Below, one piece after another: positions 34,430 to 40,255 of a DNA stretch of 40,255 nucleotides; within the stretch, counting starts at the first letter, position 1, and each line of letters begins with the position of its first letter. The position numbers and the translations under genes were made by a program. Origin of the DNA: an uncultured Thioclava sp. (GTDB lineage: Bacteria; Pseudomonadota; Alphaproteobacteria; Rhodobacterales; Rhodobacteraceae). The notes below the pieces were generated by a model, which worked only from the letters and a program-made list of their open reading frames with translations, made no database searches and had not been told where the DNA came from. The stretch is taken from NCBI RefSeq assembly GCF_913064665.1, contig NZ_CAJYBT010000033.1, positions 1 to 40,255 of the forward strand, in the 5' to 3' direction.

Positions 34430-34813
34430 ATGGAATCACGCCAAAAAAAAGATCAAATGTCGCGTCACGCAATGGCGCTTGATACGCTGGCTGCGCGCGT
34501 TGGTGACGAACTTGAGACACTGGCGCGCCTTTCAACGGATGTGCAGCGAGCGCTTTCAAATTGCTCCTTGCCTGCTGATACCGATGCACAAGTCATCCGT
34601 GGCCTGCAAGGCATCGACCGTATCACGCAATCTCTTGAGGATTTGGGGCGGTTAATGTCAGATGTTGCGGTCGAGATCCCCAAAGGCATACCGCTGCAAG
34701 CAGAGCCAATATTGTCGCGACTGCGTCTACATGAGTTGGTTGACAGCCTTAATCCCGCTCACGAAAAAAAAGTGATGCCACGCGAAGATGATGGTGAGAT
34801 CATATGGCTTTAG
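34430..34813 (+). CDS. Small helical protein with DxxxQ motif, CheZ/CheT-like candidate
   Basis: A 127-residue, probably all-helical protein at the end of the che operon. It contains GIDRITQSLEDLG, giving D63-R-I-T-Q67, the DxxxQ pattern of CheZ phosphatases. Sinorhizobium meliloti CheT, the small last gene of its che operon, is reported to be a CheY phosphatase with the same motif, so a CheY dephosphorylation role is plausible. The rest (ARVGDELETLARLSTDVQRA) fits a long helix. The TAG stop lies at the first base of the left inverted repeat of an IS5-like copy, so the natural C-terminus might have been altered. RBS weak. Confidence 0.65.
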   Translation: MESRQKKDQMSRHAMALDTLAARVGDELETLARLSTDVQRALSNCSLPADTDAQVIRGLQGIDRITQSLEDLGRLMSDVAVEIPKGIPLQAEPILSRLRLHELVDSLNPAHEKKVMPREDDGEIIWL

Positions 34814-35792
34814 GCTCAGGCCCCATTCCTCGGCTTGCGATGACCTTTGCGAGGTGTTTCACTCTCTCCATCTAGAGGGGAGTATAATGAACTTTTTTTC
34901 TGGCTGACCGACGAGCAGATGGAGCGGCGTGGATCGTATTTTCCGAACAGCAACGGCAAGCCACGGGTCGATGACAGGCGTGTTTTGAGCGGGATAGTAT
35001 TCGTCAAGCGCAATGGGTTGAAGTGGCACAATGCGCCCAGGGAAAATGGCCCGCGCAAGAGGCTCACCAAGCGCTGGAGCGGGACGGGCGTGTTCGCCAG
35101 GAACTTCGAAGGATTGGCGGTCAAGGCGACAGTGCCGGGGCCGATCATACTCCCTCTCATTAACTGCTGCGCAATCAATGAGAGGGCAACGGACGAGCGC
35201 TATCCACTGCCCGGCAGTTGTTTGCATGCAAATCACGAGACGGTGCAAGATGCACCGCACCGCGAAAAATATAGGCGAGAAAAAGGGGGGGCGTGGGCGA
35301 CTGTTCCATTGCCCAGAAGAGCAATGCACTGCAATGGCCCGAGAGGGACCAAGCTGCATGCCGTGCGTGACGGCCAGGGCCGGCCCCTCAGTCTATGCGT
35401 CACTGCTGGCCAGGTCAGTGATTACATCGGAGCGCGGGCATTACTGAGCAATTCGCCAAAGGTCGAGTGGCTTCTCGGGCCCTCTCTTCGAAACTGCGAC
35501 TCGGCTGCCGGACAGCGGATCGCGTATACTACGCCGACTGGTTTAGAGAAGCATTGAAAGACAAGGGCATACTCGCTTGTATGTAGGGTCGCAGACAACG
35601 CAAGACGCCCGTGAAATACGACAAGCGGCGATACAAACACCGTAACCACATCGAGATCATGTTTCGCAGGCTCTAGGACTGGCGCCGCGTTGCAACGCGG
35701 TATGATCGCTGCCCAAAGGTCTTCCTTTCGGTTATCGCCCTCGCTGCAACCCTCATTTATTGGCGATGAGATGCTATAACGGGGCCTGCGTC
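34813..35792 (+). mobile_element. Decayed IS5-family (IS427-like) insertion sequence
   Basis: A 980-bp block framed by imperfect terminal inverted repeats: left GGCTCAGGCCCCATT (34813-34827) and right AACGGGGCCTGCGTC (35778-35792), 12 of 15 matching when one is reversed. Between them lies a broken IS5-type transposase. No convincing target duplication was recognised. It sits directly against the end of the che operon. Confidence 0.75.
34889..35771 (+). pseudogene. IS5-family transposase remnant
   Basis: Pieces of an IS427-group IS5 transposase appear in order but in three frames: FFWLTDEQM, FPNSNGKPRVDDRRVLSGI and FVKRNGLKWHNAP near 34895-35040; KMHRTAKNIGEKKGGRGRLF near 35245-35310; GTKLHAVRDGQGRPLSLCV and TAGQVSDYIGARALL near 35345-35445; DWFREALKDKGILACM, then a stop, TPVKYDKRRYKHRNHIEIMF, a stop, and DWRRVATRYDRCPKVFLSV to 35771. 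A run of seven T near 34892 shifts the start. With at least three frameshifts and two internal stops it cannot make a working protein. Confidence 0.85.
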
Positions 35793-35871
35793 GCGTAATG
35801 CCCGTTGCCGCTTGCAAGATAAGAGGCAAGCTGTCGCCGTTCCCGTATTGGATCCACACGGAGGACTACGG

Positions 35872-36378
35872 GATAAGACGGTTTGTAGGACTGGACGTAT
35901 CACTGGCCAAAACCTCGATCTGCGTGATCCGCGAGCATGGCAAAATCATCAAGTTAGCCGAGGCTCCGAGTGAACCTGCGGCTTTGGCGGTTTGGCTGGA
36001 TGACTTGGATGGCACAATTGCGGCGGTCGGTCTTCAACCGATCCGTTATCACAGTGGCTGCATCGTGACCTGACTGAAGCGGGGATGGATGCTGTGGGGA
36101 TAGAAACAAGCCAAGGTAAAGCAGGCGCGCAATGCCCTCGGCGTCTCGCCGGTCCGTCTTGATCGGCATGGCCTTCAAGGCACCCGTCCCTTGCCGGGTT
36201 CCGGCCCGTTCACTGCAAATCCGTTTCGGCGCAAGAAGTCCGTGCCGTGCTCGGTGCCCACAAGGCCGTCCAGCAGGGAATGATCGCCTTGGCCCGGCGT
36301 ATCGGTGTGATCCTTCATCGGATGTGGATCGATGATACCCACTTCCAGTCTGACATGATCGTGCCACATGCAGCCTGA
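35872..36378 (+). pseudogene. IS110-family transposase remnant with internal inversion
   Basis: The start IRRFVGLDVSLAKTSICVI and HGKIIKLAEAPSEPAALAVW is the N-terminus of an IS110-type transposase (Asp in GLDVS is the first catalytic acid). A frameshift near 36030 moves to SQWLHRDLTEAGMDAVGIET. Then 36121-36184 encodes the next block on the opposite strand (GALKAMPIKTDRRDAEGIAR). The plus strand resumes with VHCKSVSAQEVRAVLGAHKA and jumps by deletion to a C-terminal piece MIALARRIGVILHRMW, ending at TGA 36376-36378. About 160 of the usual 330-400 residues remain. It is dead. Confidence 0.8.
36121..36184 (-). other. 64-bp micro-inversion inside the IS110 remnant
   Basis: Reading the minus strand gives GALKAMPIKTDRRDAEGIAR plus L, exactly the segment missing between IETSQ and VHCKSV on the plus strand. 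The two junctions are clean: GGTAAA before, CGTCCC after. So this piece was flipped in place after the element inserted. Confidence 0.7.
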
Positions 36379-36840
36379 AGACTTGAGTTTCCAACCGTTG
36401 TCTGCCGAACAGCAGGCCATCGAGGTCCCCCCAGGGACGCGGTTCCGATGATGCCGTGGTCAGGACTGTTGCCGATCCAAATCGAGCACGCCAATGAGAT
36501 GGGCACGTCGGAATTGCATTGAACCAGCATCATGTTGGCAGCCAGGCGCTGCCAACGGACCGAAGCATGCACCCGGGAGGATCTCAAACGAAGGCGGTGG
36601 TGACAGCAGGGCGGCCTAGAAAGAACCAAAGTAAAAACTGCACACCAGCGGCTGGCCGCCCATGTGCAAAATCACTTGACTGGGACGGCCCTGTTACCGA
36701 AGTCCTAAGCCTGATTTTATGCGGAATTTCCCATCAACCGCCTTCCACTTGGGCGCACTATCCTGCATCAATCCGCTGCTACCCGCATCTGCGCGAGCGG
36801 GTGCGCATCCGCGCCGACCGGCTGTTCTAAGCGCGCGCCG
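36379..36840. other. Non-coding scar between the IS110 remnant and the flavin module
   Basis: No credible gene is seen in these 462 bp. Open frames of 70-105 codons exist on both strands but show no recognisable motif, no RBS and skewed residue content. The stretch is probably further eroded mobile-element or host DNA. Nothing resembling a tRNA or attachment site was found. Confidence 0.5.
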
Positions 36841-38358
36841 TCAGCCAAATCCCGGGAACAGGTCGGTGTGTATTCGGCGGCGCGATGCCCCACAACTGCG
36901 CAAGGCCTTGCGAAAGGTCGATACCATGGAGGTGGGCCCCGACACATAGATATAGCGTTCCGCGATATCGGGCACTTCCCGCGCCATCAATTGCGCATCG
37001 ATCCGACCGGGATGAAGATTGTCCAACCTTGCCTCGGCTTGTGACACAGCATGAATGACTCGCAGCCCCAACTCGCGCTCGGCACGCGCAAGCAACGGCA
37101 TGTACGCAATATCCTCGGCCTGCCGATTGCCATAAAGCAAGATGATGTCACGCTGCTCGCCACGGTCGAGCAAATCCTGAATCATGCTGCGGAACGGGGT
37201 GATCCCGATCCCGCCGGCGATTAGCAGAATTTTGCGGCGCGGATTGCGTGGCAAGGTGAACGTTCCCGCGATTTGTGAGCCGTAAATAGCATCGCCGGGC
37301 GACATCTCGCACAGATGTTGCTTGAAGGCGCTGGGACCGGAGTAGAATTTCACCCCCAGACGAACGTGATCTTCCGACGGGGACGAGGCAATGGTGAAGG
37401 TCCGCCGATTGCCGCGATTGTCGGGTTTGCGCACGCCCAACGTCCAATCCAGATATTGCCCGGCGCGGAAGTTCAAACGCCGATCTGACCGAAAGACGTA
37501 ATCGTAGCAATCAGCCGCGATACGCTCGACATGAAGAAGCTCGAGGCGGAACCGTCCCTTGGGGCTGGCCGCCCATGCGTAGAGATTGGCCACAAGGAAG
37601 GCGAGCTCGGGCGAGAAGTAATAGTTGGCGATGTGAATATTGGGCGAGGACAACGCCCCAACGAGGATCGCGTAGATATGGCGCGACCAGCGCCCATGCG
37701 CAGCGGTCAGCGGCTCGGTCAGCATCGCAAAACCGGCAAAGAACAGCGGCGAATAGATCAGGCCCTGCTGAAGCCCCATCCCCAGCATCTCTGGCGGGGT
37801 CGTCAGCACAACGGCTGCGAGATTTGCCAAAAGGTAGCTGGCGATCATGCCGAGGCGCTGGACCTTATGGGTCACCAGCAGCCCTCCGATCACGACCAAA
37901 GGCAACAAGGTCGGACTGCCGCCAACCCACCAGACCGCCGGCTGATTGACCAAAAGGCCCGCCGCCACAGCCCCGATCGCCACCGGGTTGAAGATATGCT
38001 TATGCCCGATGGTCAGAACGAATTTCGACCCGATCGCCACAACTGAGGCTACAACAACTCCAAGGATAGACATCGGGTCGCTCGGCACTGCTGGCGGCAT
38101 GATCAACACCAGGATCAGCGCCGTGATATGCACCGATTCCGCGTTAAGCGGCAGCCTGAGGACATAGCCGAAAAGACGATTGGTTCCCCAAGCACTGACA
38201 AAGGTGACGACAAGTGAGAATAGCAAGGAGGACGGGGTCATGAACGTGGCGCCGGCCACAGCAAGGCCGAGACCTGCGACAAACAATGCGCCGAGATAGT
38301 AGATCATCAAGCGATACATAGTCGTGCCATTCAGCACGCGTGAAATCAGGGTCATCAT
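36841..38358 (-). CDS. NqrB/RnfD-like membrane domain fused to FAD/NAD(P)H reductase
   Basis: A 505-residue fusion. Residues about 15-265 form some ten membrane segments of the NQR2/RnfD/RnfE type, including GHKHIFNPVAIGAVAAGLLV. No SGAT-type flavinylation site is present in this part. Residues about 270-505 are a ferredoxin-NADP+ reductase-like module: FRAGQYLDW, the FAD motif RTFTIASSP (319-327), the nucleotide motif AGGIGITPFRSM (381-392) and YVSGPTSM, ending HTDLFPGFG. No [2Fe-2S] domain is seen, unlike NqrF. It would take electrons from cytoplasmic NAD(P)H and pass them through the membrane to the flavoprotein encoded upstream. ATG at 38358 overlaps the apbE stop (TGATG). Confidence 0.85.
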   Translation of the reverse strand: MMTLISRVLNGTTMYRLMIYYLGALFVAGLGLAVAGATFMTPSSLLFSLVVTFVSAWGTNRLFGYVLRLPLNAESVHITALILVLIMPPAVPSDPMSILGVVVASVVAIGSKFVLTIGHKHIFNPVAIGAVAAGLLVNQPAVWWVGGSPTLLPLVVIGGLLVTHKVQRLGMIASYLLANLAAVVLTTPPEMLGMGLQQGLIYSPLFFAGFAMLTEPLTAAHGRWSRHIYAILVGALSSPNIHIANYYFSPELAFLVANLYAWAASPKGRFRLELLHVERIAADCYDYVFRSDRRLNFRAGQYLDWTLGVRKPDNRGNRRTFTIASSPSEDHVRLGVKFYSGPSAFKQHLCEMSPGDAIYGSQIAGTFTLPRNPRRKILLIAGGIGITPFRSMIQDLLDRGEQRDIILLYGNRQAEDIAYMPLLARAERELGLRVIHAVSQAEARLDNLHPGRIDAQLMAREVPDIAERYIYVSGPTSMVSTFRKALRSCGASRRRIHTDLFPGFG

Positions 38359-39101
38359 CAGGCTACAAACTCCTTGAAACCGGTTGTTGCCAGCGCAGTG
38401 CCATCGGGGGCAATTGCATAGCCTTCAAGGCCAGCCATGGCCTCGATGTGATAGATACCGCGTGCGCCCATTGCGAAACCTGCGGTCGCGTGCAGGTCAG
38501 CGGTGAGAACGTCTGGAGCAATAACAGTCAATGAGACGACTTCGGTTATAGGCTCGGACGGTTGATGCGGGTTGTAGATGTGGTTCCCGCGCACATAGCT
38601 GCCAGAGGTCGCCATGCCGCCCCCTTTCGGCGTCACCACCTTGACGACGTGATCTGGATTGAACGGACTTTGAATGCCTATCCGCCAGTCCGCGCCATGC
38701 GCATCCTTGCCGGCACATTGGATATCACCCCCCGCATTCACGCAGAAATTCGTCTGTCCTGCCGCCACAATCTGGCGTGCGGCACGCAAGATCGCCCAAC
38801 CTTTGACCACCCCGGATGGATCGAGATCTCCATCCGGACGCAGCGGGTCGAAATAACCGCCCGTCTCAGCCGATATGTCGCGGGCAATCTCGAGAACTTC
38901 GCGCATCTGCGCGCTGATCTCATCGGCGCGCAAAGCCCCCGCATTGAGACGGCTCAACTCGCTGTCATCGCGATAGGGGCTAAAGCGTGCATCCACTCTG
39001 GCGAACTCGGAAAAGACCTCATCGATCAGGTCGGTCTCTTCAAGATCAGGCAGGTCTATGGAAATCGGCATTCCCATCATGAGCCGGGTGATTTTGGTCA
39101 T
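38358..39101 (-). CDS. apbE: FAD:protein FMN transferase (ApbE family)
   Basis: A 247-residue ApbE. Family blocks are ARFSPYRDDSELSRLN, GYFDPLRPDGDLDPSGVVKG, the FAD-binding VNAGGDIQCAGK (121-132), ATSGSYVRGNHIYNP, and the Mg-site region TADLHATAGFAMG (200-212). It transfers FMN from FAD onto Thr of the SGAT motif in target proteins. It is shorter than the usual 300-350 residues and starts MTKITRLMMGMPISIDL with no signal peptide or lipobox; only 11 nt separate it from the upstream gene, so a longer N-terminus is unlikely. Its target is almost surely the FMN_bind protein just upstream. Confidence 0.9.
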   Translation of the reverse strand: MTKITRLMMGMPISIDLPDLEETDLIDEVFSEFARVDARFSPYRDDSELSRLNAGALRADEISAQMREVLEIARDISAETGGYFDPLRPDGDLDPSGVVKGWAILRAARQIVAAGQTNFCVNAGGDIQCAGKDAHGADWRIGIQSPFNPDHVVKVVTPKGGGMATSGSYVRGNHIYNPHQPSEPITEVVSLTVIAPDVLTADLHATAGFAMGARGIYHIEAMAGLEGYAIAPDGTALATTGFKEFVA

Positions 39102-39112
39102 ATCCCCTCAGA

Positions 39113-39526
39113 TCAGTTCAGAGATTGCAGAAGAGCCGCGTGCGTGGAGGCGAGGAAGGCATCGCTCGTCAAGGTCGCGCCCGAAACATTCGAAACATGG
39201 GTATTCTGTGCCTGAACAATTTCGGATTTCAGACGCGGAAGGGCAATCGAATTGATGTATCGGCTTGTCCGCCGATCAGTAGGAGAGCGCAGGATATCGA
39301 TTGCGACAATCTTTCCGTTTTTGATATGGGCTTGGGCCTGAACATATCCGTAATACTGGCGCACTGAGGGGCCGCGATAGGTGCCATCGTGGTAATGCAG
39401 CGCGCTGCTTGACGTTTTTGTGGCGGCAGAGGGCGCCCAGAACAGACCCGCAGATGCGCTGCCAGCGCTCCAGATCACGACCAGTGCAGTGGCTGCGAGA
39501 GTGCGAATGGTAATAGTGGTTTGCAT
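39113..39526 (-). CDS. Secreted FMN_bind protein with SGAT flavinylation motif
   Basis: A 137-residue protein with a signal peptide (about 1-26, ending SAGSASA) and one FMN_bind domain as in NqrC and RnfG: YHDGTYRGPSVRQYYGYVQA, GKIVAIDIL, and VSNVSGATLTSDAF with Thr118 in SGAT as the expected site of covalent FMN. It should sit in the periplasm, or be anchored there, as a one-flavin electron carrier. First gene of a three-gene operon with apbE and the NqrB-reductase fusion. The upstream 500 bp carry no gene. Confidence 0.9.
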   Translation of the reverse strand: MQTTITIRTLAATALVVIWSAGSASAGLFWAPSAATKTSSSALHYHDGTYRGPSVRQYYGYVQAQAHIKNGKIVAIDILRSPTDRRTSRYINSIALPRLKSEIVQAQNTHVSNVSGATLTSDAFLASTHAALLQSLN

Positions 39527-40038
39527 TTTAACCTCATGACTTTTCTTGGGGACGACGCCTTATGCGAAGGCATGTCGCAGATAAGTTGACTGTCAGAGGC
39601 AAACCAGCCGCCCGCAAATCCCGCTTGCGTGATATTCATTGCACGAACCTGAAGCTGGCCAGCAACGGATTGAAAAAAAAGAGCTTTAGAGAATTTTCAA
39701 CTGAATCTGAGGCTCTGCAACTTTAGTTCTAACTCCCCAAATCAACTGCAAGACGTATGCGGTTTTATGGATCGGGAACGGCACTTTTGCAGAACTCACG
39801 CTTGAGGCGTGACATCCCCTTTCCCCACTGACGTCCTGCGATGCGAGCGATTGTGGCAGGCCGATGTCGGAGGAACTTTCATGATCGCGATGCGGATATG
39901 GATTTCGGCGTTCAGGCGTGCGTCTCTCTGAATAGCCCCTTGAGGCGCCTTGAGAGCACGCCGCAGCAAATTGTAAGGTGCGGCTGCTCGCGGAACATTT
40001 TCATTTAGCGCGTAGGTTTCGAGCGAAGGAGATGTTCA
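39527..40038. other. Long intergenic region upstream of the flavin operon
   Basis: These 512 bp hold no convincing gene. Two small dyads are visible: GCCTTATGCGAAGGC (39557-39571, 5-bp arms, about 30 nt before the FMN_bind ATG, a possible operator) and TCACGCTTGAGGCGTGA (39796-39812, perfect 6-bp arms). A 16-codon frame with a good RBS starts at 39881 but has no known counterpart. The stretch is more AT-rich than its surroundings around 39670-39760. Confidence 0.4.
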
Positions 40039-40158
40039 ATGATCAAGGATCAACGCGAGATTCAGCGCATCCTTCGCCGTATCGGTATGAACCGGCTTCC
40101 GCGCGGGTCCCGTCGTGCGCAAACATTTGAGAGTGTCAGATCTTCTGTGTATGAGTGA
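40039..40158 (+). CDS. Small 39-residue basic peptide, possible transposase fragment
   Basis: ATG 40039 to TGA 40156-40158, with a strong RBS (AAGGAGAT, 6 nt spacing). The product starts MIKDQREIQRILRRIGMNRL and is basic. The pattern QRILRRIGMNRLPRG recalls the DNA-binding helix region of IS481-type transposases (VLRRxGLNRL), so it may be a short remnant of one; it may equally be an independent small gene. It lies 32 nt before the IS256-type transposase. Confidence 0.35.
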   Translation: MIKDQREIQRILRRIGMNRLPRGSRRAQTFESVRSSVYE

Positions 40159-40190
40159 TCCGGTCCATGCTTCATCGAAAGGAAGCATGC

Positions 40191-40255
40191 ATGACGATCT
40201 CCAAGGAACTGCTGGACGAACTGCTGAAGGGCGTTGAGCGCCCCGAGGACCTGCT
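40191..40255 (+). CDS. IS256-family transposase, N-terminus (partial)
   Basis: The last 65 bases encode MTISKELLDELLKGVERPED followed by L and the window end. This is the characteristic N-terminus of many IS256/Mutator-type transposases. RBS AAAGGAAG precedes the ATG. The rest, and whether the element is intact, lies outside the window. Confidence 0.75.
   Translation, partial: MTISKELLDELLKGVERPEDL

Follow-up and report, generated by a model that had tools for sequence, protein, structure and literature searches.

A three-gene NQR/RNF-like operon of an uncultured Thioclava, with a predicted path from NAD(P)H to an exported flavin and an ApbE that lacks an export signal

The window analysed here is the entire contig NZ_CAJYBT010000033.1 (40,255 nucleotides) of an uncultured Thioclava sp. 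(Alphaproteobacteria, Rhodobacteraceae, assembly GCF_913064665.1). Three genes lie near its end on the minus strand, in the order FMN_bind (39526-39113), ApbE (39101-38358) and a fusion of an NqrB/RnfD-like membrane domain to a reductase module (38358-36841); their upstream side reaches only to the contig end, at 40255. An initial annotation, made from the sequence alone, had placed three open reading frames (ORFs) here, overlapping or nearly so, and both the ORF list and Pfam agree: the FMN_bind and ApbE genes are 11 nt apart, and ApbE and the fusion share one base. A promoter and terminator scan of 34800-40255 gave no more sites than shuffled sequences. The features are the following (FMN, flavin mononucleotide; FAD, flavin adenine dinucleotide):

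39113..39526, minus strand: FMN_bind protein, 137 aa, single FMN-binding domain at residues 58-132 (ORF; PF04205, 2.6e-7)
39449..39526, minus strand: residues 1-26 of the FMN_bind protein, a predicted signal peptide of Sec type, cut at ...SASA/GLF (sequence; hydropathy peak 2.1 over 12 residues; cleavage site by eye)
39173..39184, minus strand: SGAT, residues 115-118, predicted FMN-bearing Thr118 (motif definition from PMC12052999)
39108..39110, minus strand: in-frame TGA, third codon before the ApbE ATG (sequence reading)
38358..39101, minus strand: ApbE of short form, 247 aa, a predicted FAD:protein FMN transferase without an export signal (PF02424, 2.1e-41; alignment to E. coli ApbE)
37573..38358, minus strand: membrane half of the fusion, NqrB/RnfD-like, approximately residues 1-262, modelled with about ten helices (PF03116; profile match; AlphaFold2)
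36841..37560, minus strand: reductase half of the fusion, an FNR-type module for binding FAD and NAD(P)H, approximately residues 267-505 (PF00175; NCBIfam; Foldseek; motifs RRTFTIASSP and AGGIGITPFRS)

The 505-residue fusion matched PF03116 (NQR2_RnfD_RnfE) at 5.3e-7, with 29.7 bits barely above the cut-off of 27.7, and PF00175 (NAD_binding_1) at 1.6e-16; these two matches, and those to FMN_bind and ApbE, all exceed the curated Pfam cut-offs. When a profile of 14 membrane domains was compared with solved structures, it matched RnfD (8ahx_D, 1.1e-6) and NqrB (9lrr_B, 6.6e-5), and the membrane half is a real, if distant, NqrB/RnfD homologue. An AlphaFold2 model from seven sequences (mean predicted local distance difference test score (pLDDT) 77, predicted template modelling score 0.54) placed about ten helices ahead of a reductase fold. 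Foldseek matched this model to FNR folds such as 2r6h; neither NqrB nor RnfD was among the 50 matches listed, which the reductase half dominates, and the longer alignments, to flavohaemoglobins and NADPH oxidases, had root-mean-square deviations of 11-18. The reductase half gave NCBIfam matches to flavin reductase and NqrF-type families, all below cut-off among the 25 matches listed, and it resembles the same kinds of module in solved sequences and by fold. We take RRTFTIASSP and AGGIGITPFRS to be the FAD and NAD(P)H binding sites of the FNR-type fold. The initial annotation had seen no iron-sulphur (Fe-S) domain in this protein; indeed, none was found among its Pfam matches, and a sequence search found [ST]GA[ST] nowhere in it.

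The FMN_bind protein carries SGAT at residues 115-118, so that the Thr118 initially proposed to bear FMN is the last residue of the motif. Its closest solved relatives are 8p2a_A (3.3e-7) and 8p2b_A (0.0042). A genome-wide search found no other member of the family, which therefore makes it the only FMN_bind target for this ApbE. Export by the Tat pathway is unsupported, the twin arginine being absent from the signal.

A similar arrangement has been described. One-way transfer from NAD(P)H to an extracytosolic FMN was proposed for NQR/RNF-like systems (Meheust 2021, PMC8238504; Huang 2024, preprint PMC10979944), and Huang 2024 models such a complex and remarks that conservation does not extend to the flavinylation site of NqrB. 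The window's fusion combines an N-terminal PF03116 with a C-terminal PF00175, as Meheust 2021 specified, and has ApbE and FMN_bind genes within five genes, at least one of them with a signal peptide or lipid site (judged from hydropathy and by eye). As in Huang 2024, the membrane subunit lacks the conserved flavinylation Thr of NqrB/RnfD. By every sequence criterion tested, the operon is a member of the described class, and we rejected the idea of a new kind of system because the published sequence definition already covers it. Nor is the electron path novel, since it was published for NQR/RNF-like systems.

Gene content, domain make-up, motifs, conserved order and the absence of a signal from ApbE were all observed here; cofactors, direction and electron path most likely follow the published family model. 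NAD(P)H would reduce the FAD of the fusion's C-terminal module on the cytosolic side; electrons would then pass through a non-covalent flavin in the NqrB/RnfD-like membrane domain to the FMN held covalently on Thr118 of the exported FMN_bind protein, where the short ApbE would have attached it, and would finally leave for an acceptor outside the inner membrane. Huang 2024 proposed that the FMN_bind subunit docks on the membrane subunit and that electrons flow outward (PMC10979944). Taken as one claim, it is highly probable that the operon is an NQR/RNF-like transmembrane electron-export system that uses this path. The initial annotation had arrived at the same path, which stands in so far as it is already published and the three-gene unit recurs in 18 of 19 alphaproteobacterial loci; what it had missed is that ApbE carries no signal.

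The fusion is rare in the sampled Alphaproteobacteria. At 1e-40 it was found in 7/101 close relatives, all in the window's genus; it was found in 3/385 members of the class, one of which (G299) matches across the membrane half only, and in 10/398 members of the phylum. Each count includes the window's genome, and at most three first-look candidates were scored per genome in the class and phylum surveys. Within the genus, the same 7/16 genomes hold both the fusion and the short ApbE. Further copies were found in Beijerinckiaceae and Hyphomicrobiales metagenome-assembled genomes; another sits on a Mesorhizobium plasmid, its fusion bearing the annotation 'RnfABCDGE type electron transport complex subunit D'. 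The order FMN_bind, ApbE, fusion was seen in those 18 loci, and the 19th (L008/L040) is cut inside ApbE by a contig edge; the fusion of L006/L023 is cut to 411 residues by a contig end. L006/L023, L008/L040 and L009/L045 are pairs of one place, each counted once. Since several other loci are near-copies (L019-L022; L046/L047), these counts are of loci and not of independent events.

Some copies differ in their partners. The Mesorhizobium-type loci (L041, L046-L050) have a longer FMN_bind protein, of 281 residues by the annotation of L041, in which a membrane segment at the N-terminus and then a Pro-rich linker precede the FMN domain, an arrangement perhaps long enough to span the periplasm. 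A further alphaproteobacterial locus, L039 (6500-9094), has ApbE and a longer FMN_bind, followed by a protein that shares 37% identity over 249 residues with the membrane half of the window's fusion; this protein has neither an FAD/NAD(P)H reductase half nor a Pfam match, and its electron donor is not apparent. A copy on a Pseudomonas-labelled plasmid (L042) has long branches and is too divergent for placement in the trees; its ApbE, at 26% identity over 121 residues, is not close and not of the short form. That 19-kb 'Pseudomonas sp. DR48' plasmid (NZ_CP081947.1) has argS-like and lysA-like genes beside the FMN_bind lipoprotein, ApbE and fusion, and reads like a piece of an actinobacterial chromosome (gene names by eye).

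The fusion is also present in a Doudnabacteria locus, L010, whose phylum we take to be Patescibacteria. In that phylum 53/239 genomes match it at 1e-30, 34 at full length and 19 over the reductase half only. From the 34 we picked 17 loci by hand, mostly those with the best scores. All three genes stand together in 10/17, ApbE being broken in two in L074; in L065 FMN_bind adjoins the fusion and a fragment of ApbE lies at the contig end. A genome-wide ApbE search of the 17 genomes found the enzyme in 10/17, in agreement with the loci. FMN_bind was sought in the flanks only, and genome incompleteness can mimic the absence of a gene.

Several observations weigh against the electron path as drawn. 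First, in 6/17 Patescibacteria loci the fusion has neither FMN_bind nor ApbE; the initial annotation had named neighbourhoods without co-occurrence of the three genes as a result that would count against it, and this is what part of the Patescibacteria show, but not the Alphaproteobacteria (18/19). Five of the six (L010, L063, L064, L068, L070) group into a single clade of the fusion tree (100/100), and the sixth, L066, stands apart; the flanks of these five contain neither FMN_bind nor ApbE, and a search of their genomes found no ApbE elsewhere. Second, the 8 window ORFs scanned yielded no acceptor gene, and the upstream side ends with the contig. Third, NADH and NADPH are indistinguishable here as donors. 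Fourth, the flavinylation motif is not strict: three residues before its first Ser, the window has Ser where Asp is usual, and across 32 FMN_bind domains this position holds D in 14, S in 9, N in 6, R in 2 and H in 1; [ST]GA[ST] in its strict form is absent from 3/32 (L039, L042, L071). All 32 domains nevertheless have Thr or Ser at the FMN site, and a variable Asp may be tolerable because changing it to Ala affected one tested system only slightly (PMC12052999). Last, ApbE and its substrate appear to lie on opposite sides of the membrane.

In the partnerless clade, a cupredoxin gene directly adjoins the fusion in three of the five loci (L010, L068, L070), on the same strand only in L068. This neighbour is suggestive of a carrier swap, and hints at a membrane reductase able to serve carriers other than FMN_bind.

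The sidedness problem arises from the window's ApbE itself. With a PF02424 score of 142.6 bits (cut-off 25.6) it is a predicted flavin transferase, and it matches profile positions 1-74 and 125-256, the Pfam positions 75-124 being unmatched. About 50 residues of a helical insertion, described for T. maritima ApbE (PMC12052999), are thus missing, and roughly the same stretch is unmatched in the ten Patescibacteria copies. An AlphaFold2 model from five sequences was unusable (pLDDT 49). Since an in-frame TGA stands three codons before its ATG, this ApbE cannot carry a signal peptide; nor, with a stop in frame between the two genes, is an ApbE-FMN_bind fusion by read-through supported.

We compared the two proteins in the 31 loci where both genes are readable (18 alphaproteobacterial loci, L039, L042 and 11 Patescibacteria). 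Export signals were judged by 12-residue hydropathy and by eye, with E. coli ApbE (2.68) as the one positive control. A hydrophobic segment precedes the domain in 31/31 FMN_bind proteins (1.58 to 3.03), whereas ApbE lacks a hydrophobic N-terminus in 30/31 loci (at most 1.60), the exception being the L065 fragment (2.26). The two ranges touch: the highest unexceptional ApbE value (1.60, L044) comes from within the domain rather than from the stretch ahead of it, and the FMN_bind minimum (1.58) from L042, a lipoprotein by eye. Upstream of ApbE there are at most 6 open codons in 19/31 loci and 13-54 in the other 12, and a hidden upstream start is unsupported, as among these 12 only L065, a contig-end fragment, has a hydrophobic stretch there. 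The ApbE tree omits L065, L074 and the pepsy-type ApbE of L030.

With an ApbE devoid of an export signal, the flavinylation step is less simple than in canonical systems. Because no such signal is visible, we infer that the short ApbE probably flavinylates its partner in the cytosol, before or during export. A seven-residue tag is enough for flavinylation (PMC12052999), so that an unfolded precursor could plausibly be modified. For NQR/RNF-like systems in general, we hold it almost, but not quite, an even bet that a short signal-less ApbE loads FMN in the cytosol onto the unfolded FMN_bind precursor, which Sec then exports, or which is inserted as an anchored protein, with the flavin in place. 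If true, loading of the covalent cofactor would come first and Sec export second, opposite to the order described for ApbE substrates. The literature searched yielded no statement of flavinylation before export; supplementary signal-prediction tables lay outside that search.

The electron path could be the same and flavinylation take place outside the membrane, either through an ApbE exported without a recognisable signal or through the genome's other ApbE. The majority of characterised ApbEs are lipoproteins of the periplasm, and one early test found that location to be essential (PMC12052999); for PceC flavinylation outside, by a lipid-anchored enzyme, was proposed (PMC5928378). The genome does hold a second ApbE (L030:7278-8243), but this one likewise lacks a hydrophobic N-terminus, and its gene overlaps that of a PepSY_TM-flavodoxin-reductase protein, its own likely partner; moreover, a hydrophobic N-terminus is absent from 30 of the 31 operon ApbEs. 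Flavinylation outside is a minority possibility, and loading in the cytosol by the short ApbE is the reading we favour. The second locus (L030:7278-10431, G000:C12; the overlapping gene encodes 735 aa) merits mention in its own right: as its ApbE also has no hydrophobic N-terminus, signal-less ApbEs may extend beyond NQR/RNF-like systems.

Another proposal, compatible with the electron path above, concerns the acceptor only: the unit would serve iron handling by reducing ferric iron (or another metal), and would not be a respiratory or general exporter. A VIT1 gene adjoins the unit in 3/6 Mesorhizobium-type loci (L041, L048, L049), and six published clusters contain VIT1 (PMC8238504). However, neither the window nor the other alphaproteobacterial loci searched yielded VIT1, and no neighbour gene, an acceptor gene included, is constant across the loci compared; we regard a role in iron handling as rather doubtful. 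Other neighbours are PepSY, histidine kinase and response regulator genes, which adjoin 6/6 Mesorhizobium-type loci, less similar two-component genes near L043 and L044, and cytochrome b561 genes near L006, L041 and L049; as with VIT1, this search turned up no cytochrome b561 in the window. As hints on function, neighbour genes are weak.

It is very improbable that the operon represents a Na+-pumping NQR or RNF in remnant or variant form, still coupling electron flow to ion transport: the membrane domain is homologous to NqrB/RnfD, but the genome has no other PF03116 or FMN_bind protein, the membrane subunit has no covalent-FMN motif, and the fusion's Pfam matches include no Fe-S domain. A full NQR or RNF complex was rejected on the first of these grounds, and the earlier statement that the rest of Nqr or Rnf is missing holds for PF03116 and FMN_bind, each with a single match in the genome, the other subunits not having been searched for. 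One PF02508 (Rnf-Nqr) match exists elsewhere in the genome, as the tail of a frame whose start resembles another gene. This sole match (L094, G000:C59) ends a 187-residue frame that follows a uppS-like gene and starts CdsA-like by eye, possibly an assembly chimera.

Between the fusion and a set of chemotaxis genes in the window (region 34847-36629) lies a remnant of an IS4/5-family transposase (PF13340, 34847-35557). A 91-residue ORF at 35798, in the same interval, has no Pfam match; it resembles the start of an IS110-type element.

With this operon and its relatives, one of them on a Mesorhizobium plasmid, the described class extends into the Alphaproteobacteria. What deserves to be followed is sidedness: a flavin transferase with no visible means of leaving the cytosol is paired with exported substrates in two distant bacterial groups. 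If loading does precede export, Sec would carry a covalently flavinylated chain, the system could do without FAD on the outer side of the membrane, and this enzyme would escape any count of ApbE that filters by signal peptide.

With Na+-NQR and RNF the operon shares a homologous NqrB/RnfD domain, an FMN_bind domain with SGAT and an NqrF-like reductase fold; it differs in that the six-subunit complex was not found (other subunits were not searched for), the fusion is without an Fe-S domain and the membrane subunit without SGAT. To the canonical ApbE/Ftp lipoproteins of E. coli, V. cholerae and D. hafniense it is linked by the ApbE family match, but the window's enzyme lacks the N-terminal lipoprotein or export signal by which exported ApbEs are recognised, and about 50 residues of the helical insertion. 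The cytosolic ApbE of Klebsiella pneumoniae has no signal peptide either, but its substrate, fumarate reductase, is cytosolic too (PMC12052999). The closest likeness is to the NQR/RNF-like systems. The Meheust 2021 set is mainly from Actinobacteria and candidate phyla (PMC8238504), whereas the window is alphaproteobacterial; the partner in the Huang 2024 model is membrane-anchored (PMC10979944), whereas that of the window looks cleaved and soluble; and the sections of these two accounts available to us do not mention an ApbE without a signal. What the operon has in common with them is a PF03116 membrane domain and PF00175 in one protein, an FMN_bind partner and an ApbE (PMC8238504, PMC10979944), a membrane subunit without a covalent-FMN site, and a proposed one-way flow of electrons from NAD(P)H outward.

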